Positions 276 to 13,300 of a stretch of DNA of 36,440 nucleotides are shown here, one piece after another; position 1 is the stretch's first letter, and the number at the start of each line of letters is the position of its first letter. Source of the DNA: an uncultured Desulfuromonadales bacterium (GTDB taxonomy: Bacteria > Desulfobacterota > Desulfuromonadia > Desulfuromonadales > Geopsychrobacteraceae); assembly GCA_947259715.1 (NCBI GenBank), contig CAMYNR010000207.1, forward strand, positions 1-36,440. Reading direction: 5' to 3'. A model generated the notes under the pieces. That model saw only the letters and a list, made by a program, of their open reading frames with translations. It had not been told where the DNA came from and did not search any database. The position numbers and the translations under genes were made by a program.

Positions 276-1448
276 CTAGTTCGGCTGATCAGCCAGATCG
301 AACTGGCCCTGCTGATCGAGTTGCTGGACAGCTTTGAGGAGATTGCGCGTCAGCAGCGGGTGGAGAGCGGTGCCGGCTTCTTCAAGCATAATCGCGGCAA
401 TTTTGTTCAGATCCATGCCGATCCGGTAGGCTCGGTTGGTGCGCAAGGCATCGAAAAAATCGGATATGGTCGTCATCTGGCTGCACAGATGTTGCTTCCA
501 GCCTTTCGGTACCTGCGGGTAGCCGCTCTGGTTATAACGCAGGTGGTGCTCGTAGGCGGTTATCACGGCCAGGCGGGGAATGCCGGGAGTGTTGACCAGG
601 TACTCAGCTCCCAGCTGCGGGTGTTTGCGCATCTCCTGCCATTCTCGCTCTTCCAGCTGGCCAGGTTTCTGTAAAATCTCCTGGGAGACAAACAGTTTGC
701 CGATATCGTGCAGCATCGCCGCTATGCCAATATCGTGCAGCAGCTGGCCCTCGATGCCGAGCATGCGCGCCTGGGCAATATTGAGGATACAGACATTGGT
801 CGAATGGGTATAGGTGTACTCGTCCAGATTGCGCAGCGGCGCCAGGGCCATGAGAGGATTGCTCTGCTCACTGAAGGCATTGACGAAGCTGCCGACGATT
901 TCACTCAAGCCACGGACGTTGAGCTGCTTTCCGGCGCGCACGCTCTGGTAGAGGTCCATAAAGCGGTCCAGCTCTTCGGCTTCGATCTGCGCCAGTTCGG
1001 GAAACTGCTGAAACAGCTCCCTGGTGTTTTCATCCTGCTCTTGGCGGCTGTGAACCTCGACTCGCCCGAAGCGGATATTCTCGCTGGAGTTGATCTCCTG
1101 GCCTGGTTTCTCGGGAGCGGTCAGGGTGCTGATCAGCTGGCGTAATTCCTCGATCGAAACGCCAGCGCGAAGTTTCAGGTGTCCGATCCCGCGCTGTTTC
1201 AGCGCCCGAATCAGTTTGCTGACCATCAAATCGTTCTCCAAAGGAGCGTTGGTAAAAACAAGCTGATCATCGACCAGCAGCAGAGAGAGCGATGGCTGCT
1301 CGAGAAAAACCTGCTGCAAATGATCCAGGGCCTGCTGACAGAGGAAACTGACCTGCGGGTGCTGCACGTCATAGAGCCGAGCAGTCGCCATAGCCGTGGT
1401 CAGGCGGCGAATAAAGGCCAGCATGTCCTGGTTGCTATTTTCCTTCAC
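276..1448 (-). CDS. HD-GYP-type phosphohydrolase, copy 2 of the HEAT/HD-GYP cassette
   Basis: This 390-aa protein has no signal peptide or membrane segment. Residues 9 to about 135 form a domain (FIRRL..., HP at 30-31, LVDDQLVF, GIGHLKLRAGVSIEEL) that resembles the N-termini of the neighbouring HEAT proteins. The C-terminal half is an HD-GYP domain: DEYTYTHS with H215, HDIGK with H247/D248, KHP with H276, EHH at 300-302, GYP at 309-311 and ISD with D330. HD-GYP enzymes hydrolyse cyclic dinucleotides, usually c-di-GMP. The usual HHExxDGxGYP loop here reads HHLRYNQSGYP, so the glutamate, aspartate and first glycine are replaced. The predicted metal ligands remain, but substrate or activity may differ. 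The GTG start at 1448 overlaps the upstream HEAT stop (GTGA) and has AGGAG 6 nt upstream, so the pair is probably translationally coupled. Confidence 0.85.
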   Translation of the reverse strand: MKENSNQDMLAFIRRLTTAMATARLYDVQHPQVSFLCQQALDHLQQVFLEQPSLSLLLVDDQLVFTNAPLENDLMVSKLIRALKQRGIGHLKLRAGVSIEELRQLISTLTAPEKPGQEINSSENIRFGRVEVHSRQEQDENTRELFQQFPELAQIEAEELDRFMDLYQSVRAGKQLNVRGLSEIVGSFVNAFSEQSNPLMALAPLRNLDEYTYTHSTNVCILNIAQARMLGIEGQLLHDIGIAAMLHDIGKLFVSQEILQKPGQLEEREWQEMRKHPQLGAEYLVNTPGIPRLAVITAYEHHLRYNQSGYPQVPKGWKQHLCSQMTTISDFFDALRTNRAYRIGMDLNKIAAIMLEEAGTALHPLLTRNLLKAVQQLDQQGQFDLADQPN

Positions 1449-3670
1449 GGCGCGCTCCTGACCAGTTCTCTGAGTTTTTCGGCGGCAAGTTTCGACAGTT
1501 CGCCCCGGCGGTCCAGAGCAAGCTGCTGCAGCAGCGGTCGAACCCTCTGGTAGGGGTAGCGAGTCAGCTGCTGAATGATTTCCCGCTGGATTTGCTGCAG
1601 CCGGTTCGAGCTGAACAGTTTTTTACTGAACAACAGCTCACGCATGGCCGGCAGAGCGTCTTCATGACCGATGAGGCCGAGAGTTTTGATGATTTGAAGT
1701 TTCAGCGGCAGGCTCTGCTCGGTCAGCTTTTCGGCATTCAGAAGCTTAATCAGCTTTGCGGCAATGGCTGGATCGCTGCTCAGCTCGGCCAGCTGGATGG
1801 CATGGCTGCGCAGCGCCGGATCGGTGCTGTTGAGCTGCTTGAGCAGCAGGCTGTTCGCCCGGCTGTGGTCATTCTGGAAAAGCAATTTCAAGACCTCCTG
1901 ATTGACTCGCAAATGCGGGTGACGCTCCAGCGGTTCAATCGCGGCAAGCTCGACCGGCAGCTTCTGCAGTCTTAAAACGGCAATCAGGTTGCGCACCAGA
2001 AACCAGCGCTCATCCTGCAGCGCAGCGTAGATCGAGGGATGGGAGGCTTGCCCCAGACTGACCAGACTGTCGAGGTAAAAGCGTCGCAAGCCTTTGTCCG
2101 GCTCTTCGGCGAGGCGGCGGATCAGGGTTTCGGCAAAGGCAGCGCCGGTTGCCTGGATATAGGCGCGGATCTGCTGTTGTTTCGCTTTGCTCCAGCGCGG
2201 CAGGTTTTCCAGAACCTCCTGCTGAAATTCAGGGGTATGCAGGGTGTCAAATAGCTCCTGGCTCTGCTCAAGGGGATGTTCCGGTTGCTGGCGATGGGCG
2301 AGCAGCGCGCAATGCAGTTCCTGCAGACCGGTAAAATCGCCCACTTCTAAAAAATAATGGGCCAGATCGATCAGGTTCTGCTGTAGTCCGGCAATCTGCT
2401 CGGCGGTGAATTTGTTGTCTGCCAGCAACTGGAAGATGATCGCACAGCTGTGGCGCTCGGTGGAGAGCTCCGCCATGCTCTCCAGCAGCTCTGCGCGCTG
2501 CTCTTCCGGAAGTTGCAGCTCCCGATCGAAAGAGATGATCTGGTTCAAGGCGCGTTGGTAGCTTTGCGGGTTGAACTTATCATTCTCCTCTTCGCGAAAG
2601 ATGGTGCGCAATTTTTCTTCTTTTTGGTCTTCCGCCTGCTGTTTGCCGCTGGTCAGAGATTGCTGCTCGCTGCCCTGGTGATGACTGGAGAGTTTGCCGA
2701 GCAGGTTCAACATGGTTTCAGAAATATGCAAACGTTTCTGATTGACCTCCTGCAGCGATTCAAGGACCAGCTCGGGGGAGAAATTTTCCAGAACCTGCTT
2801 GCTGTTGTCCGGTTGCCCGGCGAGGTTTTGAAAGGTGCTGCTGAGAAATTGACGCTTCAGCTCCGGGGTGAGCTGAGAAATGAGCGAGCCAAGCTGTCTG
2901 CTGAGTTCAGCATTTTCGTCCAGGCTCTGCACCTTGCCGAGAAATGAGGTGATCGCCCGCTCATAATGTTGCTCCTTTTGGCCGGTTGCCTCGGAAAACT
3001 TCTGATTGAGCACTTCCGCGACGATCTTCGGGTCAAATTTATCCATGCGGGCACGTTTTCCCCAGGTCGGATCGAGGGAATCGCTGAGCAGACCGGAGAG
3101 GAAATTCTGCCAGATGGGTCTGGCATCCTGGCTCATTTCCAGGCGCTGTTCATCCGTGGCATGCAGGTTGCTGTAATCGAGCGGGGTCAGTTCGATGTGG
3201 TTGACCTGCAATTGTTCGAGCAGGCTGGCGAAGCCACCGCTCTGCGCAATCGTCTGCCGGTCGGAGCGCAGCAGCTGGTTAACACTGACCAGTTCGCTGG
3301 GAGTCGGCTGTCGATGAAAATGAATAGCGGCCACGCCGGCTTTGAACAAGGCTGCGGCAAAATCCCGATAGACCGGATTACTCCGGTCGAGCCAGTTCTG
3401 TTCGAACATCAGCGCATTTTGGGCGATGCCCAGCGTCACCGTTTCCCTGAAGTCGAAGAGCTGGCCGAGCAGAGCGAGGGCTTTTTCCGTCGAACTGAGG
3501 ATCATCGGGTGCCCGGGAGGGTAGGTGGAGAGATGGCGGCGGGAAATATTCAGCTCATAAATGAAATCGGACAGAATCTGGGTGTCCAGGATGGCGTCCG
3601 AATTGTTTTTCTCATGCACAGTCAAATTTCTTCCCATCAGCGCGATCGGTATCTTTTCAGGGCAACCCAT
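1445..3670 (-). CDS. HEAT-repeat protein with cassette-specific N-terminal domain, copy 2 (intact)
   Basis: This 741-aa cytoplasmic protein is not a family I can name. Residues 33 to about 180 form an N-terminal domain (DFIYELNISRRHL, PPGHP at 51-55, ALMFEQNWL, GVAAIHF) that aligns by eye with the N-terminus of the adjacent HD-GYP proteins. The middle, about 190-490, is helical, charged and glutamine-rich. From about residue 495 to the end there are HEAT-like helical pairs (RWFLVRNLIAVL, HPHLRVNQEVLKLL, DPALRSHAIQLAEL, LKLQIIKTLGLIG). HEAT solenoids are usually protein-binding scaffolds, so a role as partner or regulator of the HD-GYP enzyme is inferred. The ATG at 3670 has no clear ribosome-binding site; the next in-frame ATG is at 3637. 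The gene follows HD-GYP copy 1 by 29 nt and overlaps HD-GYP copy 2 by 4 nt. It is the intact paralog of the broken gene at 4860-6948. Confidence 0.75.
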   Translation of the reverse strand: MGCPEKIPIALMGRNLTVHEKNNSDAILDTQILSDFIYELNISRRHLSTYPPGHPMILSSTEKALALLGQLFDFRETVTLGIAQNALMFEQNWLDRSNPVYRDFAAALFKAGVAAIHFHRQPTPSELVSVNQLLRSDRQTIAQSGGFASLLEQLQVNHIELTPLDYSNLHATDEQRLEMSQDARPIWQNFLSGLLSDSLDPTWGKRARMDKFDPKIVAEVLNQKFSEATGQKEQHYERAITSFLGKVQSLDENAELSRQLGSLISQLTPELKRQFLSSTFQNLAGQPDNSKQVLENFSPELVLESLQEVNQKRLHISETMLNLLGKLSSHHQGSEQQSLTSGKQQAEDQKEEKLRTIFREEENDKFNPQSYQRALNQIISFDRELQLPEEQRAELLESMAELSTERHSCAIIFQLLADNKFTAEQIAGLQQNLIDLAHYFLEVGDFTGLQELHCALLAHRQQPEHPLEQSQELFDTLHTPEFQQEVLENLPRWSKAKQQQIRAYIQATGAAFAETLIRRLAEEPDKGLRRFYLDSLVSLGQASHPSIYAALQDERWFLVRNLIAVLRLQKLPVELAAIEPLERHPHLRVNQEVLKLLFQNDHSRANSLLLKQLNSTDPALRSHAIQLAELSSDPAIAAKLIKLLNAEKLTEQSLPLKLQIIKTLGLIGHEDALPAMRELLFSKKLFSSNRLQQIQREIIQQLTRYPYQRVRPLLQQLALDRRGELSKLAAEKLRELVRSAP

Positions 3671-3699
3671 ATAATTGATTGTAGCATTGTGATTTTAAT

Positions 3700-4863
3700 T
3701 TAGGAAATCTTGCTCGCCTGCTTGGCCGTTGCCCGGCTTTTGTCCAGCCTGTTAAGGACCTGAAGAAAGCCATAGGTCAATTGTGGGTGCAGTTTGCTGC
3801 CGCTGAGTTTGAGCATAACATCAGTAATCTCCTTGAGGGAAAGCGATTCCTCATAGCTTCGATGGGTGCGCATGGCATCGTAGGTGTCGGAGATTGCCGT
3901 CATATAGGAGCAGAGGTTCTGCTGCCAGGGGCGGCGGGTTTTCGGATATCCTGCGCCATCGAAGCGCATGTGGTGCTCAAAAGCGGTGATCACCGCCAGG
4001 CGGGGCACCCCTGGGGTATTCAACAGGTACTCGGCTCCAAGCACCGGGTGCTGCTGCATGATCTCCCATTCCTCGTCATCCAGGGCACCGCGTTTACCCA
4101 GAATATTCGGTGAGATGAACATTTTGCCGACATCATGCAGCATGGCGGCGATGCCGATATCGGTCAGCAGCGGCCCCTCAATGCCGAGCAGGCGCGCCTG
4201 AGCCAGATTGAGCAGGCAGATATTGGTGGAATGGGTATAGGTGTACTCATCCATCGAGCGCAGCGGGGCGATCGCCAAAAAGGCGTCGCTCTGGCTGCTG
4301 AAGGAGTTGATGAAGCTGTTGACGATTTCGTTGATGCCGGTGATGTTGAGCTGCTTGTTGGTGCGCACGCTGTCGTAGATTTCCATGAATTTATCCAGCT
4401 CATCGTCGGCGATCTGGGCCAGCTGCAAAAAAGCGGATTCGGCAAGTTGGCCTGACTCGCGGTGGCGAACGACCACCTTGCCGAATTTGATATGTTCGCT
4501 GTCGCTGACCTGCTGCTGCTGACTGTGCCGTTTGCTGAGCAGTCCGACCAGAGCGATCAGCTCTTCGGCATAAACACCCGATTCGATCTGCAGGTGACTG
4601 ATCCCTTTGAGCTGCAGGGCGCGCAGCAGTCTCTGCACCGCCAGATTTACCGCCACCGGTTGGTTGACGAAAATCAAGCGGCCATCTATGACCTTGAACG
4701 TTAAGGTTTCATGCAGGCCGAGCAGATGGTTGGCCTCCTGCAGCGCCTGGCGGCAGAGGCGCTGCACCTGCAGGTGCTCAAGGGCGTAGAGCGAGGCGTT
4801 GGTGGCTGCCGTGGTCAGCAGACGGATGAAGAGCTGGAGAGATTTCTCTTCGCCGGCGTTCAT
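3700..4863 (-). CDS. HD-GYP-type phosphohydrolase, copy 1 of the HEAT/HD-GYP cassette
   Basis: This 387-aa paralog of the protein at 276-1448 has the same two-part layout, and roughly half the residues agree by eye. The N-terminal domain (FIRLLTT, LYALEH, GRLIFVN, GISHLQIESGVYAEEL) is followed by an HD-GYP domain with H211 in DEYTYTHS, HDVGK (H243/D244), QHP (H272), EHH (296-298) and DG-AGYP (302-307). The loop reads HHMRFDGAGYP, so it keeps the DG and GYP residues and lacks only the usual glutamate after HH. This copy is therefore the more canonical enzyme of the two. Cyclic-dinucleotide phosphodiesterase activity is inferred from the family. The ATG at 4863 overlaps the stop of the upstream HEAT reading frame as ATGA. 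Because that HEAT gene is broken, normal coupling into this gene may be weakened. Confidence 0.87.
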   Translation of the reverse strand: MNAGEEKSLQLFIRLLTTAATNASLYALEHLQVQRLCRQALQEANHLLGLHETLTFKVIDGRLIFVNQPVAVNLAVQRLLRALQLKGISHLQIESGVYAEELIALVGLLSKRHSQQQQVSDSEHIKFGKVVVRHRESGQLAESAFLQLAQIADDELDKFMEIYDSVRTNKQLNITGINEIVNSFINSFSSQSDAFLAIAPLRSMDEYTYTHSTNICLLNLAQARLLGIEGPLLTDIGIAAMLHDVGKMFISPNILGKRGALDDEEWEIMQQHPVLGAEYLLNTPGVPRLAVITAFEHHMRFDGAGYPKTRRPWQQNLCSYMTAISDTYDAMRTHRSYEESLSLKEITDVMLKLSGSKLHPQLTYGFLQVLNRLDKSRATAKQASKIS

Positions 4864-6948
4864 GCTTCTATCCTTTGCAGTTGTAATAGCTGTTGCCGAG
4901 CCAGCTTGGCCAGGCTGCCCTGGCGGCGGTCGGCAATTTGTCGTAAAAAAGGCTCAGCCAGCCGGCCGGGGAATCTGGCGATAGAGAAAATGATCTCCTG
5001 CTGAAAGCGTTTCTGGCGCCGCCGCAGGAGCAGGTTCTTTTGCTTCAGCAGGCCCTGCAGGACGGTCAGGCTGGTCTCGTGACCGATTCTCGCCAGGCAG
5101 CTGAGCAATTGAATTTTAATGTCCAGGTCGGAATCGGAGGCGATCTTTTCTTGCAGGAGTTCATGCAACTGGGATAGGACCGCCGGGTCCTGACTGAGGT
5201 CTGCCACCTGAATTGCCGCCTGCAGGTTTTCCGGGTTGCGGCTGCGCAGCTCCTTGAGCAGCTGCCGATTGGCGGTGGCCGGATTGACGCGGAACAGGAG
5301 TCGCATCGCTTCCTGACGAACGCGCGGATGAGGATGGTCGATGAATTTATGGATAATCCGCAACGCAGAGCTTTCCGGTTGCTGGCCGAGCACGATCAGC
5401 AGATTGCGTACCAGGTACCAGCGGTCATCGTTCAGGGCTTCCATGATCAGTTTGGTGGCGTCGAGCGATCAGCTGCGGGGCTTTTTCCTTGCCCCAAAGC
5501 TCGATTCCGTCCAGAACCTCGATAATAAAGCTGAGCTGGGTCTGGTTGGCGAGAACCTGCTCATCGAAGATGGTCGCCTTGGAGCGGCCGCTGTGAAGAA
5601 ATTCTGACCAGCTCTGGTAAATCTCTTTAAGGGTCAGGAAGTCTCCGGTATCCAGAAAGAAGCGGGAAAGTTCGACCAGGTTCTGCTGCAGGGCGGCTTC
5701 CGTTTCTGCGGCGACCTGACTGTCCAGCATTTCGAAAATAACACCGCAGCACTGCCGCTCAATCTGTTCCGCCTCAATTGTGGCTCTAAGCTCTTTTTTC
5801 CGCTCTTCCGGGATCACCTTGGAGAGATCTTCATCAAGGATGTCGCGCAGTGCCCCCTGATAACTGGAGGGCATGTAAAGATCATGTTGCTCCTCGGAAA
5901 AAAGGACATCGAGGCGGGCTCTGATAACATCCTTTTCCAGGGGCTTATCCTCCCCCGCGGGGGAGTCGAGAATCGGCCCATGATCTACGGAGAGCCGTTG
6001 GACCAGCTTGATCATCCGGGCCGAAATCTTCATCTGTCGCTGGCTCTGCTTTTCAAGCGCCTCCAGCAACAACTCCTTAGGGAAATTGTTGAGAACACTC
6101 TCTGCGTTCTCCGGCTGTTTGTCCAGTTCGGTGAAGGTGTTGTCAAGGAAGCTCTGGCGCAAATCGGGACTCAGTTTGTCCAGCAATGCTGGAAGCTTCT
6201 GGATCGGCTGCTCGGTCGTGGGCTGCCCAGGCCTGGCATTGAGCATTCGGGCGATAAAAGAACGCACTGCCTGACCCTGCCGCTGAGGGTCATTGCCGGC
6301 GGGAAGCTTCTGGTTCAGCAGCGCGGCGACCAGGGCCGGATCGAGTTGCTCGGGCCAGCTGAAGCGGGTTCCCTCCGCATCAAGGCTGCCGGCCAGCAGC
6401 CCATGGAGGAAATTTTCCCAGAGAGTTCTTTCCGCCGGCAGGTCGATCGCAGAGTTGCTCTGATCCAATTGAAAGGCGGCATAGTCGATGGGGACGATTT
6501 CGATCTGCTCGATCTGCTGTTGACGCAGCAGCTCAGGGAAGCCGCCGCAAGAGGCAATGACTTCAGCTTCAGAACGCAGCAGCTGGTTCAATCTGAACAG
6601 TTGAGCCAAGGTCAGACCGCGTTTGAAGCTGATTGCGGCAATCCCTCTGTCGTAGAGAAACCTGGCGAACTCCTGGAAGGTTGGATTCTTCTTTTCCAGC
6701 CATTGTTGGTCAAGCATCAAGGCATCCGGAGCAACCCCCAGATGGAGCTCGCCTCTTTGCTTAAGTAACAATTGCAGCAACTCCAGGGCTTTTTTGTGGC
6801 TGATGGCAATTTTGGGATGCTCAGGCGGGTAGAGGGACAGGTTGCGCCGAGCGACATTCAGCTCATAAATAAAGTCAGCCAGCCGCTGGTTTTTCTGCTC
6901 ATTTATTATCTGTGGCGTGGTTACTTGGGTCAATGGAAGTCCAATCAC
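4860..6948 (-). pseudogene. HEAT-repeat protein, copy 1, broken by an out-of-frame deletion
   Basis: Two reading frames together match the intact 741-aa paralog. The first (6948-5425, 507 codons) carries the cassette-specific N-terminal domain (DFIYELNVARRNL, PPEHP, ALMLDQQWL, GIAAISF) and the middle region. The second (5444-4860, 194 codons) carries the HEAT repeats and is exactly as long as the matching end of the paralog. At the junction the first frame runs WGKEKAPQLI and then enters a short foreign tail ending at a TGA at 5427-5425. The second frame resumes with MEALNDDRWYLVRNL. About 37 residues present in the paralog are missing. I count a net loss of 113 nt, not a multiple of three. 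No ribosome-binding site precedes the internal ATG, so the C-terminal part is probably poorly made. The start used here is the GTG at 6948. Confidence 0.75.
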
Positions 6949-7099: not shown

Positions 7100-8086
7100 A
7101 TGACTCCTCGCGAACTGTTCGAGGTTGAAGATGCTGCGCTGGCCGCCCAGCTGTTTGGTCAGCAAAACCAGCATCTTAAACTGATCGAAAAGAAGCTCGG
7201 GGTCCGTCTCGGCAGCAAGGGGACCTGCCTTCACCTGTCAGGTGAAAAGCCGCAGATTCAGATTGCGTTGCGCTTACTCGAAGAGCTCTGCGCGTTGCTG
7301 CGTGACGGCATGCCGCTCTATCCGACCGACATCGATTACGCCATCCGGATCCTTTCCAGCGATTCTTCAACGAATCTCAAAGATATCTTTTTCGATACGG
7401 TTTTTGTCTCGGCGCGCAAAAAAATCATCGCACCGAAAAGCCTGGCGCAAAAAAAATATATCGACAACATTCGCCAGAATCACGTAGTTTTCGGCATCGG
7501 CCCGGCCGGCACCGGAAAAACCTATTTGGCGATGGCGATGGGGGTGGCCGCTCTGATGCGCAAAGAGGTCAGTCGCATCATGCTTGTACGCCCTGCAGTG
7601 GAGGCGGGGGAAAAGCTCGGCTTTTTACCGGGCGACCTGGCGGAAAAGGTCAACCCCTATTTGCGGCCGCTTTACGATGCGCTATACGACATGATCGATC
7701 TGGAGAAGGCCCGAAACCTGGTTGACACTGGCGTTGTCGAGGTGGCACCGCTGGCTTTCATGCGTGGTAGGACCCTGAACGATGCTTTTGTCATTCTGGA
7801 TGAAGCGCAAAACACCACGGCCGAACAGATGAAGATGTTTTTAACCCGCCTCGGTTTCGGCAGTCGGGCAGTGGTGACAGGCGATGTCACCCAGATCGAT
7901 CTGCCGCGCGATGCCCATTCTGGATTGCTGCATGCCATGGACGTCCTCGACGGCGTGCCGGGCATCGCTTTCAGCCAGTTCTCGGATGTCGATGTGGTAC
8001 GACACCCGATTGTGCAGTCGATCGTCCAGGCTTATCAGGTGGCCGAACGCCGGGTGCTCAATTCAGGTCGCCGCGGACGAGCGTAG
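7100..8086 (+). CDS. phoH: PhoH-like ATPase
   Basis: This 328-aa cytoplasmic P-loop NTPase has a typical PhoH/YbeZ length. Residues 134-141 are the Walker A motif GPAGTGKT. The Walker B region is AFVILDEAQNTT, followed by the family signatures EQMKMFLTRLGFGSRAVVTGD and DLPRDAHSGL. An N-terminal KH-like segment precedes the ATPase (LKLIEKKLGVRLGSKGTCLHL). PhoH proteins are associated with RNA metabolism, and in many bacteria they sit next to ybeY, as here. This supports a role with YbeY in rRNA or ribosome maturation (inference). It is the first gene of the plus-strand run phoH-pgpH-ybeY-corC-lnt. Upstream of the ATG there is no strong Shine-Dalgarno sequence. Confidence 0.93.
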   Translation: MTPRELFEVEDAALAAQLFGQQNQHLKLIEKKLGVRLGSKGTCLHLSGEKPQIQIALRLLEELCALLRDGMPLYPTDIDYAIRILSSDSSTNLKDIFFDTVFVSARKKIIAPKSLAQKKYIDNIRQNHVVFGIGPAGTGKTYLAMAMGVAALMRKEVSRIMLVRPAVEAGEKLGFLPGDLAEKVNPYLRPLYDALYDMIDLEKARNLVDTGVVEVAPLAFMRGRTLNDAFVILDEAQNTTAEQMKMFLTRLGFGSRAVVTGDVTQIDLPRDAHSGLLHAMDVLDGVPGIAFSQFSDVDVVRHPIVQSIVQAYQVAERRVLNSGRRGRA

Positions 8087-8123
8087 TTGTCTCCCGGGGG
8101 CACCGGGAGCTGCTTGAGGAATT

Positions 8124-10535
8124 ATGACGAAAAAAGAACGGGAAAAAATCCGTCGCCAGCGCTCAATGGTGCTTTGCGATGGAATGCAGGGACTGCGGAA
8201 CCGCCGGAAGGGGAACTTCGGCTTCTGGTTGCTGTTGGCGCTCGGCGTCCTGCTGACGTTGCTGATCATTCCCAAGGGTGGTTTTATCCCCGATTACCAT
8301 ACCCCGGGAGATATTGCTTCCCGCGATATAAAGTCGCCGCGGGATCTGCTGGTGGAAGATGTTCCTTTGACCGAAGCCAAGCGGGAAGAAGCCTCGGCGG
8401 CGGTTCCGCCAGTCTATGACTTTGATACCACCGCTGGCAGTAAGGCTGTCGAACGGATCCGCAGTGGGCTGAGCTTGCTGCAGAGCGCCCAGACATCTGA
8501 AGAGCCGCCGACCCAAGAGGAGCTGCTCCCGCAGCTGGAGTCCGATTTTGGCGTCCCGCTGACCCTGGCTGAATATCAGGCGCTGCTGCAATTGCCGGCT
8601 GATCAGGAGGTTTCAAGCCTGGCGGGTGAGCTGCTGAGCAAGGTTTTCAATCAACCGATCGTGGCCAACCTGCAGGTCTTTGAAGCCGACCGCGAGCGCG
8701 GCATCCTGGTCCAGGCGCTGGTTGGCGGCGAAGCCCTCAAAGAAAACCGGGCGTCGCAGGCAACCGGATTGAGTGAGGCTCTCGATCAGGCCAAACAGCT
8801 GCTCAGTGAAATTCCCAATCTCAACGCTGTCCAGCACCAGACTTTGCTGAAGCTGGTTCAGCAGCAATTGCGACCAAACCTGACCTACAATCAGCAGGAA
8901 ACCGAAAAACGTCGTCAGCAGGCGCGGGCTGAGGTCAAGCCGGTCCTCTTTCAGGTGAAAAAAGGGGAGATGATTGTCCGGGAAGGGGAGCGCCTGACCG
9001 CTGAGCAGATCACCAAGTTGCGGGCTATTCGTGATTCCGGTCGTGACAACCGCAGTTTGCAGACCGCGATGGGTTTGCTGATCTGCATTCTGCTGATCAT
9101 TTATATCGGCTTTCATTTTGCCCAGGGGAACATCCGTAAATTCCGTCCTGACTCCCGTGACCTGCTGTTTCTGGCGGTGGTTTTTTTGTCCCTGTTTGCG
9201 CTTATCAAGGTGGCCATCTTTGTCGCCACCGGGCTCGGCAATACCTTTGCCTACGTTGATTCCTCCGCCTATTACTACGCCATCCCTTTTGCCATGGGTG
9301 CAATGCTGGTGCGCATCGTCCTCAACTCGGAGACCGCCCTGCTGTTTGCGGTTCTCTGTGGTTTGTTGGTCGGGGTGCTGTTCGGCAATAGCCTGTTTAT
9401 GGCCTTTTACGCACTGGCCAGCGGTCTGGTCGGAGCAAATGGGGTCCGCCAATGTCAGGAGCGGACAACCCTCTATACGGCCGGGATGTGGGTCGGCCTG
9501 ACCAACGCTGCGCTGTTGATCGGGATTCATTTTCTCGCCGGCCGCAGCCTGGAGTTGCAGCTTGCCTGGAAGGTCTGTTTCGGTCTGTTCGGCGGTCTGC
9601 TCAGCGCGGTGTTTGTCAACGGTACTATTCCGCTGGTGGAATCCTTTTTCAAGTACACCACCGATATCAAGCTGCTGGAACTGGCCAATATGAATTCGCC
9701 GATCCTGCGCCAGTTGATGGTTGAGGCGCCGGGAACCTATCATCATTCGATCCTGGTCGGTAATTTGGTTGAATCAGCTGCCGAAGCGATCAATGCCAAC
9801 CCCCTGCTGTCGCGGGTGGCTGCTTACTATCACGATATCGGCAAGGTCAAGAAACCGCTTTATTTCATTGAAAATTCTGGCGGTCAGAGAAATCGTCACG
9901 ACAAGCTGGCGCCATCAATGAGCGGCCTGATCCTGACCTCCCATGTCAAGGACGGCGTTGAGCTGGCCAGGGAACATAAGCTGGGCGCCGAACTGATCGA
10001 TATTATTCAGCAGCATCACGGCACCGCCTTAATCAAGTTTTTTTACGACCGGGCCAAGAATCAGACCGGCGCCGATATGCCCCAACCGGACGAGCGGGAT
10101 TATCGCTATCATGGGCCCAAGCCTCAGACCCGAGAAGCGGCGTTGATCATGCTGGCTGATGCGATTGAGGCGGCCAGTCGCACCCTGCAGGATCCGACCC
10201 CGGCCCGGATTCAGGGGATGGTGCAAAAGCTGATCAACAATATCTTCATTGATGGGCAACTGGATGAGTGCGAGTTGACCCTGAAGGATCTTCACCTGAT
10301 CGCCAAGAGCTTCAACCGGGTGTTGGCCGGATCGTTCCACCACCGGGTTGATTACCCCGAGCCGGTGCATATCGTGCGGGAAAAGAGCGACCGTAGTGAC
10401 CGGGAAGCGGTGGTTGTAAAGACAGTGGAAAAGCATGAGAATTCAGATCGAGAATCGGCAGAGGAAACAAAAGATCCTGAAGCGCCCGCTACGAAAGGTA
10501 ACGCAGAGGATCTTAAACGTCTTGGCATCTCCTGA
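8124..10535 (+). CDS. pgpH: PgpH-like 7TM receptor with extracellular domain and cytoplasmic HD phosphohydrolase domain
   Basis: This 803-aa membrane protein has the 7TMR-HDED architecture. A signal-anchor helix lies near residues 33-52 (FWLLLALGVLLTLLII). A large extracytoplasmic domain follows to about residue 310. Seven hydrophobic helices then span about 312-510, and a cytoplasmic HD domain contains AYYHDIGK (H570/D571) and the later QQHHGT. In Firmicutes, PgpH hydrolyses c-di-AMP to pApA, and that activity is the family-based inference here. Whether this organism makes c-di-AMP cannot be seen. The ATG at 8124 follows GAGGAATT. The last 33 codons overlap ybeY in another frame, giving a hydrophilic tail (DRESAEETKDPEAP) that is probably not conserved. 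Confidence 0.9.
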   Translation: MTKKEREKIRRQRSMVLCDGMQGLRNRRKGNFGFWLLLALGVLLTLLIIPKGGFIPDYHTPGDIASRDIKSPRDLLVEDVPLTEAKREEASAAVPPVYDFDTTAGSKAVERIRSGLSLLQSAQTSEEPPTQEELLPQLESDFGVPLTLAEYQALLQLPADQEVSSLAGELLSKVFNQPIVANLQVFEADRERGILVQALVGGEALKENRASQATGLSEALDQAKQLLSEIPNLNAVQHQTLLKLVQQQLRPNLTYNQQETEKRRQQARAEVKPVLFQVKKGEMIVREGERLTAEQITKLRAIRDSGRDNRSLQTAMGLLICILLIIYIGFHFAQGNIRKFRPDSRDLLFLAVVFLSLFALIKVAIFVATGLGNTFAYVDSSAYYYAIPFAMGAMLVRIVLNSETALLFAVLCGLLVGVLFGNSLFMAFYALASGLVGANGVRQCQERTTLYTAGMWVGLTNAALLIGIHFLAGRSLELQLAWKVCFGLFGGLLSAVFVNGTIPLVESFFKYTTDIKLLELANMNSPILRQLMVEAPGTYHHSILVGNLVESAAEAINANPLLSRVAAYYHDIGKVKKPLYFIENSGGQRNRHDKLAPSMSGLILTSHVKDGVELAREHKLGAELIDIIQQHHGTALIKFFYDRAKNQTGADMPQPDERDYRYHGPKPQTREAALIMLADAIEAASRTLQDPTPARIQGMVQKLINNIFIDGQLDECELTLKDLHLIAKSFNRVLAGSFHHRVDYPEPVHIVREKSDRSDREAVVVKTVEKHENSDRESAEETKDPEAPATKGNAEDLKRLGIS

Positions 10536-10908
10536 TGCGGAACTGTCGATTCTGATTCTCGATAACGCCGGGATTCAGGAGATCAATCGCGACTACCTGC
10601 AGCGGGACCGGCCGACCAACGTCATCTCCTTCGCCATGCAGGAAGGGGAGGGGGCAGAGCTGACGCCGACGCTGCTTGGCGATGTGGTGATTTCCGCCGA
10701 GCGGGCCGCCAGTGACGCGGCCGAGGCACAGATCCCTTTTGAGCATGAGCTGGTGTTTTTGTTGCTGCACGGCATCTTGCATCTGCTGGGGTATGACCAC
10801 GAGCGGGGCACGGCGCTGCAGGCGGAACAGATGGAAGCGCGGGAGCGGGAGATTTTCTCCCTGCTTAAGCAAGAGTTTCTGACAAGTAATGGCTATCTAC
10901 AAAACTGA
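10435..10908 (+). CDS. ybeY: YbeY endoribonuclease (rRNA maturation factor)
   Basis: This 157-aa protein has the YbeY zinc motif HGxLHLxGYDH, with H112, H116 and H122 as the three predicted metal ligands. The N-terminus MRIQIENRQRKQKI is typical of the family, and RDRPTNVISF is the conserved central strand. YbeY is needed for 16S rRNA 3'-end maturation and ribosome quality control. The start at 10435 lies 101 nt inside pgpH. I keep it because the family's first strand (IENRQ) is encoded there, so the long overlap appears real. The neighbours phoH and corC are the usual ones. Confidence 0.93.
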   Translation: MRIQIENRQRKQKILKRPLRKVTQRILNVLASPDAELSILILDNAGIQEINRDYLQRDRPTNVISFAMQEGEGAELTPTLLGDVVISAERAASDAAEAQIPFEHELVFLLLHGILHLLGYDHERGTALQAEQMEAREREIFSLLKQEFLTSNGYLQN

Positions 10909-10922
10909 AGTGAGGGCCAAGC

Positions 10923-11780
10923 GTGGAAAGCGATAATTCGCAGGAGTCGAGTAGTTGGTCAGGTAAGTTGCGGCAGCTGTTTCGGAGCCGACCGCAAGCG
11001 AGCACCGAAGAGGAACTGCAGGAATTGATCGATGCCTCAGAGCAGCAGGGGATCATCGATGAAGATGAAGGGGACATGCTTCAGTCGATCCTGGAGTTGG
11101 ATGAAACGATCGTCCGGGAAATCATGGTCCCGCGCACCGATATGATCTGTGTCGACTGCGAAGAGTCGCTCAGCAATATTCTTAAAGCCATTCTCAAGTC
11201 GGGGCACTCGCGAATTCCGGTTTATCGTGAAAATAACGATAACATCATCGGCTTGATTTACGCCAAGGACCTGCTCCGTTACTGGGGGCAGCCGCTGGAT
11301 GAAATTCAGCTGGATGATGTGCTGCGGCCCCCGCTGCTGGTTCCGGAATCTAAGCTGGTCAGCGACCTGCTTAAGGAGTTTCGCGAGTCGCGGGTGCATA
11401 TTGCGATCATCATTGACGAATATGGCGGCACTTCCGGTTTGGTGACCATCGAGGATCTGATTGAAGAGATCGTCGGAGATATCCAGGACGAATACGATCT
11501 GGAAGAGGAGTGGATTGTCGAAGAGCCGAACGGCAGCGTTCTGGTAGACGGTCGTCTGAATATTGAAGAGTTCGAAACCCAGTTCGACATCGCCGTCGAG
11601 CGGGAAAAATTTGATACGGTCGGCGGCTACGTGGTTGAGCAGCTGGGGCGGGTGCCGGCCGCTGGAGAGCGTGTCAATATCGGTGATCTTGAGATGTTGG
11701 TGGTGCTCGGCGATCAACGCGCCATCCGGCAATTAAGAATCCTTCCCAGCGAAAAACCTCCCGCCACAGTCGAATCCTGA
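10923..11780 (+). CDS. corC: CorC/YbeX-type CBS-domain protein (HlyC/CorC family)
   Basis: This 285-aa soluble protein starts with GTG at 10923, preceded by GTGAGGG. It has an acidic N-terminus (EEELQELIDASEQQGIIDEDEGDML), a CBS pair (VREIMVPRTDMICV ... HSRIPVYRENNDNIIGLIYAKDLL, then VPESKLVSDLLKEFRES and IIDEYGGTSGLVTIEDLIEEIVGDI) and a C-terminal transporter-associated CorC_HlyC domain (VDGRLNIEEFETQF, FDTVGGYVVEQLGRVP). The family has been linked to Mg2+/Co2+ efflux and, for YbeX, to ribosome maturation. The second role fits this phoH-ybeY neighbourhood. It lies 14 nt after ybeY and 5 nt before lnt. Confidence 0.9.
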   Translation: MESDNSQESSSWSGKLRQLFRSRPQASTEEELQELIDASEQQGIIDEDEGDMLQSILELDETIVREIMVPRTDMICVDCEESLSNILKAILKSGHSRIPVYRENNDNIIGLIYAKDLLRYWGQPLDEIQLDDVLRPPLLVPESKLVSDLLKEFRESRVHIAIIIDEYGGTSGLVTIEDLIEEIVGDIQDEYDLEEEWIVEEPNGSVLVDGRLNIEEFETQFDIAVEREKFDTVGGYVVEQLGRVPAAGERVNIGDLEMLVVLGDQRAIRQLRILPSEKPPATVES

Positions 11781-11785
11781 ACCGA

Positions 11786-13300
11786 ATGGCTTTTTTGAAT
11801 CGAACCTGTCTCATCTCTGCCGGGTCCGGCCTGCTGCTGGCGGCCGCTTTTCCGCGACCGGACTTTTATCCTTTGGCCTGGGTCGCCCTGGTCCCGTTGT
11901 TGCTGGTCATGCGTCGACGCCCCTTTGCCAGCGGTTGGTCGGCCGGTTGCGCATTCTTTGCAGCGGTCCTCTATTGGGTGAATATTGTCATGACCACCTA
12001 TGGTGGTCTGCACCCCATACCTTCTTTGTTCGCCTATCTTTTTCTTGTCGGTTATCTGGCGCTCTTTTTTGCCGCTGCAACCTGGCTAAGCTGCCGCCTG
12101 GAGAGCGGCTTGCGGATACCGGTCCTGGTTAGCATGCCAGCTATCTGGGTCGCGCTGGAATACCTGCGGGGCCTGCTGCTGACCGGATTCCCCTGGGCTT
12201 TGCTCGGTTACTCGCAGCAGAATTTCAGTGCCGCGATTCAGAGCGCAGATGTGACCGGAGTCTACGGCGTCAGTTTTCTGCTGGTCCTGGTCAATTGCAG
12301 TCTTGCCTGGATTTTGCGCTCTCCAGAAAAAAAACTGGCCTGGTTGGGGGTCGCAGCGACATTGATGGTCTGTATCAGCCATCTGGGCTATGGCTTTTGG
12401 CGCATGCAGCAGCCGCTTGAGCAGCGGGAAGATCTTCTGACAGTCGCTCTGGTGCAGGGTAACATCGATCAGGCGATTAAATGGAGCCCGGACCACCGGC
12501 AGACGACCGTCGAGACTTATCGGCAGCTGTCCCTTAAGGCCGCTGAGCAGGGCACGCAGCTGACCATCTGGCCGGAGGCAGCGACACCGTTTTTTCTTCA
12601 GGATCCTTTAGCATTGGCCGAGGAGGTAAGGCGGCTGCCACAACAGACCGGTAACTATCTTCTGGTTGGCAGCCCTGCCTATGAGCAGGCAGGGGACAGT
12701 TATCGCTACTTCAATAGTGCTTTTCTGTTCTCTCCGCAAGGGGATGAACTCGGCCGCTCCGATAAAATTCATCTGGTGCCTTTCGGCGAATATGTGCCGC
12801 TAGGCAGCCTACTTTCCTTTATCAACAAGCTGGTGGTCGGGGTCGGCGACTTCTCTCCGGGGGTGGTGAATCCGCTGTCGCTGAACGGTCATAAGCTTGG
12901 GGTGCTGGTTTGTTATGAAGCTATTTTTCCTGAGCTGGCCAGGGATTATGTTCGTCAGGGAAGCAGTTTGTTGGTCAATTTGACCAATGATGCCTGGTTC
13001 GGGCGGTCATCGGCTCCGTACCAGCACTTGGCAATGACCCGTTTTCGCGCCATTGAAAACCGCATCTGGGTTGCCCGGGCTGCCAACACCGGAATTTCAG
13101 CGCTCATCGCACCCTCCGGGGAGGTCAAAGTCGCCGGGCCCCTTTTTGAGTCAACTGTGTTGGTCGATCAGGTGGGGTTGGGCAGTGAAAAGACCATTTA
13201 CACCCGCTTTGGCGATCTGTTTGCTTACAGCTGTCTGCTGGCTACTGGTTGCGGCCTGGTCTGGCTGTTGCTTGCCCGCCGGCGCAAGCAGACACCCTGA
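11786..13300 (+). CDS. lnt: Apolipoprotein N-acyltransferase
   Basis: This 504-aa inner-membrane enzyme adds the third acyl chain to the N-terminal cysteine of lipoproteins. Hydrophobic helices cover roughly residues 10-210, followed by a periplasmic nitrilase-like domain and a last helix near 475-495. The catalytic triad is visible as E264 (IWPEAATPF), K327 (SDKIHLVPFGEYVP) and C376 (VLVCYEAIFPEL). The motif LTNDAWFGRSSAPYQHLAMTR is also conserved. Length agrees with the family. The ATG lies 5 nt after the corC stop without its own clear Shine-Dalgarno sequence, suggesting coupled translation. The adjacent corC matches the order seen in many proteobacteria. Confidence 0.95.
   Translation: MAFLNRTCLISAGSGLLLAAAFPRPDFYPLAWVALVPLLLVMRRRPFASGWSAGCAFFAAVLYWVNIVMTTYGGLHPIPSLFAYLFLVGYLALFFAAATWLSCRLESGLRIPVLVSMPAIWVALEYLRGLLLTGFPWALLGYSQQNFSAAIQSADVTGVYGVSFLLVLVNCSLAWILRSPEKKLAWLGVAATLMVCISHLGYGFWRMQQPLEQREDLLTVALVQGNIDQAIKWSPDHRQTTVETYRQLSLKAAEQGTQLTIWPEAATPFFLQDPLALAEEVRRLPQQTGNYLLVGSPAYEQAGDSYRYFNSAFLFSPQGDELGRSDKIHLVPFGEYVPLGSLLSFINKLVVGVGDFSPGVVNPLSLNGHKLGVLVCYEAIFPELARDYVRQGSSLLVNLTNDAWFGRSSAPYQHLAMTRFRAIENRIWVARAANTGISALIAPSGEVKVAGPLFESTVLVDQVGLGSEKTIYTRFGDLFAYSCLLATGCGLVWLLLARRRKQTP

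Follow-up and report, generated by a model that had tools for sequence, protein, structure and literature searches.

We analysed a window of 36,440 nucleotides (contig CAMYNR010000207.1 of assembly GCA_947259715.1) from an uncultured Desulfuromonadales bacterium (phylum Desulfobacterota, class Desulfuromonadia). On its minus strand lie two cassettes in succession, each consisting of a gene for a HEAT-repeat protein followed by a gene for an HD-GYP protein, so that the order of transcription is HEAT1, HD-GYP1, HEAT2 and HD-GYP2. HEAT2 (1445–3670) is intact and encodes 741 residues, and its stop codon overlaps by 4 nt (1445–1448) with the GTG start codon of HD-GYP2 (276–1448, 390 residues; Pfam HD_5, 56.1 bits, cut-off 27.2). 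The same 4-nt arrangement (4860–4863) joins the stop of HEAT1 to the start of HD-GYP1 (3700–4863, 387 residues; HD_5, 50.8 bits, cut-off 27.2). HEAT1 is represented by two parts recognized by their reading frames and by tblastn: an N-terminal open part of 507 residues (5425–6948) that comprises the domain described below and a middle region, and, out of frame with it, a C-terminal part of 194 residues containing HEAT repeats (4860–5444). Both HEAT proteins qualify as HEAT-repeat proteins by the Pfam family HEAT_2 (PF13646, cut-off 27.7), with 45.3 bits for HEAT2 and 55.8 bits for the C-terminal part of HEAT1. Comparison by tblastn with the intact 742-residue HEAT1 of the nearest relative (L035) shows that about 110 bp, a size derived by hand from the alignments, are absent and that the frame shifts near position 5464. 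HEAT1 is hence broken in this assembly, through either an assembly error or a real loss. A first-pass annotation had described two cassettes with 4-nt overlaps; the gene order and both overlaps hold, but HEAT1 is not a single open reading frame.

Each of the four proteins begins with a related domain, to which we refer by its motif, LYxxxHP. On the minus strand of the window it occupies positions 6460–6900 in HEAT1 (profile A1, E = 2.6e-47), 4450–4851 in HD-GYP1 (E = 4.2e-42, with HL in place of HP), 3152–3586 in HEAT2 (E = 6.5e-48, with TY in place of LY) and 1032–1442 in HD-GYP2 (E = 1.1e-44), all four copies being themselves rows of profile A1. This profile detects no further copy in the same genome. 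A fifth, partial copy, apparently cut by a contig end, was seen there with a wider profile (L129).

The HD-GYP part and its known relatives

HD-GYP enzymes are a main class of cyclic-dinucleotide phosphodiesterases, and their metal ligands comprise the HD pair and further His and Asp residues, with a Lys following the HD. The catalytic domain of HD-GYP2 (approximately residues 205–380, window positions 309–836, minus strand) carries H215, H247, D248, H276, H301 and D330, as placed by alignment to PDB entries and to relatives. In an alignment of 71 HD-GYP proteins, H215, H247, D248, K251, H276 and H301 are invariant, and D330 is found in 70, the remaining row having a gap. The GYP loop follows HH in 171 of 175 proteins (four do not fit the pattern), and its G and Y are present in 71/71 aligned rows. 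The extended signature of the family, HHExxDGxGYP, carries a Glu after HH that is not a metal ligand; this Glu is never present in the 171 pattern-fitting proteins, in which M, L, I, V, A, T or F stands instead. The proteins are expected to be active phosphodiesterases, and by analogy with the family they would hydrolyse c-di-GMP or 3′,3′-cGAMP.

The closest solved relatives of HD-GYP2 are 4mcw (Metal dependent phosphohydrolase), which we take to be PmGH, and 5z7c (3′3′-cGAMP-specific phosphodiesterase 3). They align over residues 209–377 and 210–374 of HD-GYP2, respectively, and the metal-ligand His and Asp residues and the GYP loop are kept. Unlike these enzymes, the window HD-GYPs have L or M after HH, where the common signature has E, possess a different N-terminal domain and are preceded by a HEAT partner gene. 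The NCBIfam model NF053512 (NosR-family response regulator c-di-GMP phosphodiesterase) aligns with the C-terminal half containing the HD-GYP part at 66.6 and 68.2 bits, far under its cut-off of 400 bits, and leaves the N-terminal domain outside the alignment. The HEAT proteins resemble HEAT_2 and PBS-lyase type proteins (PF13646, PF03130) in their C-terminal HEAT_2 repeats and differ from them in bearing the LYxxxHP domain and in being paired with an HD-GYP gene. DUF3391 (PF11871), presumably the N-terminal domain of other HD-GYP proteins, has no match with E up to 1 to any of them in a Pfam scan of the window proteins, and gives weak partial matches in L085 (14.6 bits) and L113 (19.4 bits), both below the cut-off of 27.8. 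A search for anti-phage defence proteins (PADLOC, 2023 library, E ≤ 0.001) with HD-GYP2, HEAT2 and HD-GYP1 gave no match.

A domain common to both partners

The first-pass annotation had suspected from a pattern seen by eye that the N-termini of HEAT and HD-GYP proteins are related. Profile–profile comparison with hhalign bears this out. The rows, 19 for HEAT and 18 for HD-GYP, came from L035–L050 together with the window and were chosen by gene and not by domain. Residues 31–137 of HEAT2 matched residues 7–112 of HD-GYP2 over 106 columns with a probability of 97.3% and E = 1.7e-11, against at most 2.7% for 40 column shuffles, 0.1% for a reversed profile and less than 1% for five comparisons of other segments. 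These segment comparisons speak against homology beyond the N-terminal domain: probabilities stayed below 1 when three other HEAT segments were set against the N-terminal half of HD-GYP, and when the HEAT N-terminal domain was set against the linker and the catalytic part of HD-GYP. Searching the same genome with HD-GYP2 also retrieved the N-terminus of HEAT1 (E = 3.6e-6, 28% identity, query residues 2–109). Larger sets of 54 HEAT and 47 HD-GYP copies gave a probability of 99.8% and E = 1.4e-29 over 133 columns, in a comparison that is not blind, the copies having been collected with a joint profile. In the LYxxxH motif, a joint alignment of 23 rows shows both Tyr and His without variation; when all types are aligned together (46 rows), Tyr alone is invariant, and in the tandem-domain proteins described below the His is replaced by Ser or other residues.

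AlphaFold2 models, built from separate alignments and compared by the order and position of their elements, agree with this result. The predicted N-terminal domain of HEAT2 (predicted local distance difference test, pLDDT, 87.5; predicted template modelling score, pTM, 0.80) has helices at 2–25 and 31–47, strands at 53–59 and 62–65, a helix at 75–86, a strand at 89–95 and a helix at 100–109, followed by three more helices and a strand at 135–139. That of HD-GYP2 (pLDDT 88.5, pTM 0.82) has helices at 2–25 and 31–48, strands at 53–59 and 62–65, a helix at 74–85, a strand at 90–94, a helix at 99–110 and a strand at 125–128. The order helix-helix-strand-strand-helix-strand-helix is thus common to both, at nearly identical positions, and points to a predicted alpha/beta domain with an LYxxxHP motif.

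That the similarity reflects chance or a general amphipathic-helix pattern could be argued from BLASTP, in which HEAT2 and HD-GYP2 as single sequences do not match significantly (E = 0.15). The hhalign result with its shuffle, reversal and segment controls, the match within the genome and the matching models refute this reading, to which we give a negligible probability. Judged by the sequence comparisons, the HEAT and HD-GYP N-termini are homologous. The domain is so far unnamed: no Pfam family scores above its cut-off on the N-terminal parts of the window proteins, and these proteins reach no NCBIfam cut-off either.

Searches of the PDB with both models, using Foldseek and VIA-align, gave no significant or domain-covering match, which is not proof of a new fold. 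The best Foldseek E values were 0.042 (PelD, TM score 0.21) and 0.43 (Csa5), and both lists contained weak, non-significant rows of GAF domains. The best VIA-align Z scores were 4.4 (root-mean-square deviation, rmsd, 7.5; 81 residues aligned) and 6.4 (rmsd 2.0; 49 aligned, two helices only), and a GAF row reached Z 2.5 (rmsd 4.4; 71 aligned). A profile search of PDB sequences returned Octarellin V.1 (40 positions aligned, E = 0.0012), which we take to be a designed protein, and four weaker rows.

Distribution, pairing and architectures

The domain is found by profile A1 in 97 of the 247 phylum genomes, and by the wider profile A4 in 110 of the 117 from the class, for which a completeness of 95% was required and to which the genome of the window (77%) was added; 150 matches were listed in each search. 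The number of copies is even in 94 of the 110 carrying genomes of the class, because copies mostly occur as adjacent HEAT and HD-GYP pairs. The domain-profile search covered this phylum and that of the Comamonas genome G513, where none of 249 genomes gave a match. The 150 phylum matches listed for A1 fell into 41 adjacent and 5 tandem pairs, with 58 left single. When 20 such singles were inspected with wider flanks, 12 turned out to have a partner after all, one with a weaker score or absent from the listing. HD-GYP2 itself has matches (E ≤ 1e-20) in 274/277 genomes of the class, many of which, to judge from their scores, probably concern the HD part only.

We surveyed the gene neighbourhoods in several sets of loci. 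In 45/45 close relatives, the gene immediately upstream of that for the HD-GYP2 homologue is HEAT-related (L006–L050, of which L006–L034 are the top-scoring loci; at least three are present twice), and no HEAT gene was found directly upstream of the HD-only matches L003, L004 and L051. Of class regions chosen among the matches listed by the size of their open frames, with neighbours not known beforehand (L170–L242), 70 of 73 are paired; L179 is cut by a contig end, and L232 and L236 by the bounds of the chosen stretch. A hand-picked spread of 20 class regions contained 14 pairs (one with a split HD-GYP gene, L152), one HEAT gene with a truncated HD-GYP gene, four cuts at contig ends and one region without a pair. 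Pairing is found in 27 of the 40 regions L085–L124, half of them picked for diversity and half taken from matches without a listed partner, and in 23/24 of L243–L266 (exception L266), which are mostly already known pairs and not independent. Seen from the HD-GYP side, 71 of 76 open reading frames (one region, L038/L142, entering twice) have both their own copy of the domain and an upstream gene with a copy, the exceptions being L049, L113, L120, L141 and L147. Up to 97 of 175 pairs may have the 4-nt overlap, the count being an upper bound since the start codon nearest to the overlap was taken. Eight loci bear two labels (L006/L035, L015/L036, L017/L037, L038/L142, L039/L157, L043/L184, L045/L198 and L050/L212); L142 was removed and the duplicates L039/L157, L043/L184, L045/L198 and L050/L212 were kept, so that the set of 178 pairs is slightly inflated. 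The first-pass annotation had named a missing profile match, different predicted folds and rare adjacency as outcomes that would speak against its proposal, and none of these was observed. On plasmids, 528 records match HD-GYP2, none of them over 80% of its length, and hence no full-length relative is found there.

The window shows one form of a larger family. In type A cassettes, to which those of the window belong in form, a HEAT protein of about 710–760 residues is paired with an HD-GYP of about 375–410 residues; type B combines a HEAT protein of about 510–540 residues with an HD-GYP of about 430–485; and other forms have HEAT partners of about 570–690 residues or more. HEAT_2 scores above the Pfam cut-off in 10/10 upstream partners scanned outside the window. 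Near type B cassettes, a gene of about 188 codons whose product looks HEAT-repeat-like by eye was seen in 8/16 loci (L086, L087, L088, L091, L106, L112, L116 and L119).

The domain also occurs with other outputs. Four proteins of about 1420 residues (L092, 1530–5774; L093, 2050–6393 and 6896–11176; L094, 2666–6937) unite GGDEF, a STAND-like ATPase (AAA_16), the shared domain twice in tandem and HEAT repeats in one chain; GGDEF, AAA_16 and C-terminal HEAT are identified by Pfam in L092 and L094, and by eye the two L093 proteins match these in their GGDEF and ATP-loop parts. Their cyclase motif is AGDEF and not GGDEF, and variants of this type can be active. In L117 (3060–6129) and L118 (2864–6145), a Ser/Thr kinase gene is followed by a gene for a protein with the shared domain. 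The C-terminus of the L117 protein is weakly GGDEF-like (17.3 bits, E = 0.004, below the cut-off of 23.8), and no HEAT was found in this protein.

These architectures bear on a reading in which the shared domain is an input domain, with both proteins sensing or docking on one third component (a ligand, the membrane or a polar complex) and not binding each other through it. The GGDEF/AAA_16 proteins and the kinase-following proteins of L117 and L118 favour it, as do the weak, non-significant GAF rows in the Foldseek lists of both models. On the other hand, a domain that acts as a twosome accounts more simply for two copies per locus and for tandem copies within one chain, and we consider the input-domain reading rather unlikely.

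Partner fidelity and a possible regulatory pairing

We compared trees of 24 HEAT proteins and the 24 matching HD-GYP proteins, from 24 cassettes in 16 chosen loci with no pair dropped. The two trees agree on three lineages, of 7, 5 and 12 rows, and on the membership of each; support for the 12-row fork is 89/83 for HEAT and 96/96 for HD-GYP, with a slightly different order inside it. Eight genomes have two cassettes in tandem that belong to different lineages, and partners are swapped in none. The cassette of the 12-row lineage is transcribed first in all eight (the window, L035 and L130–L135).

In the most likely reading of the cassette, the HD-GYP has in the HEAT protein a dedicated partner, which would dock on it through the shared domain. 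We see an even chance that this is a two-gene signalling cassette in which the domain copies pair or share one signal and the HEAT protein regulates or localises the enzyme. The two-gene cassette finds its support in the homology of the domain, the matching predicted secondary structure, the adjacency of the genes, the co-inherited paralogous pairs and the conserved ligands. The two LYxxxHP copies may pair directly or take up one common signal, and the HEAT protein would act as a subunit of the phosphodiesterase, dedicated to regulating or localising it: the C-terminal HEAT solenoid would bind a target or an input, and this arm may localise or gate the enzyme. Direct pairing is suggested because the domain is used in twos. 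The first-pass annotation had proposed such docking and gating; we likewise infer it, since strict pairing, matching trees and tandem copies beside HEAT and GGDEF in one chain favour it.

Several observations weigh against this reading. The matching trees are support and not proof of contact, because adjacent genes are co-inherited anyway and linkage alone would go far to explain them. In mean-field direct coupling analysis (DCA) of 175 pairs (effective number of sequences, Neff, about 145), the HD-GYP N-terminal domain was represented 0.65- to 1.13-fold among the top 20–200 couplings of the HEAT N-terminal domain. For 100 type A pairs (Neff about 80), the values were 1.13- to 1.29-fold, and three controls with re-paired partners gave 0.81- to 1.13-fold. 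The strongest couplings led to the catalytic domain, as a clade signal would give. Couplings between the two domains were not favoured; the analysis is dominated by clade signal and we draw no support from it for contact between the domains. Moreover, the domain is carried without an HD-GYP neighbour within the surrounding stretch examined in L092–L094 (the GGDEF type), L097, L105, L107, L109, L117, L118, L122, L124 and L168, and the HD-GYPs of L113 and L120 lack a domain-bearing HEAT neighbour. Finally, the eight tandem copies tested all score closer to the HEAT than to the HD-GYP form, giving no clean assignment to the two partners.

The coupling result would also suit a duplication without a complex, in which each protein homodimerises through its domain and both act separately in one pathway: the signal between the proteins is not above that of the catalytic domain, and input domains of signalling proteins usually homodimerise. 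The translational overlap (4 nt possible in 97/175 pairs) and the unswapped paralogous pairs favour a stoichiometric complex instead, and we regard separate homodimers as improbable. A more far-reaching form of the dedicated-partner reading, possible though doubtful, is an obligate HEAT/HD-GYP heterodimer, built on one new domain of this phylum, in which the solenoid gates cyclic-dinucleotide breakdown; a diguanylate cyclase equipped with a STAND-like ATPase switch would bear the same domain pair and HEAT arm. If true, the making and the breaking of the messenger would be plugged into the same kind of scaffold.

The cassette belongs with the known cyclic-dinucleotide signalling modules and rests on an unnamed domain. 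To our knowledge, the control of many HD-GYP enzymes is not known. In a class that includes Geobacter, nearly all genomes carry this domain, almost without exception in cassettes that single out the probable regulatory subunit, and how these HD-GYP enzymes are gated becomes directly testable in laboratory strains of Geobacter. The same unnamed domain links phosphodiesterases, a cyclase-ATPase fusion and kinase-linked proteins. We found no description of such a cassette in the open-access literature, most subscription papers lying outside that search; in the relevant passages of PMC8835794, 'heat' refers to temperature.

Around type A cassettes, no neighbouring gene is conserved in more than 5 of 17 loci, and the neighbourhood hence gives no hint of a pathway. 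In the window, the cassettes are adjoined on the plus strand (7100–13300) by genes for PhoH, a 7TM-HD protein, YbeY, a CorC-like protein and Lnt, and a DDE transposase with DUF4372 is encoded near the contig end (34953–36128, minus strand).

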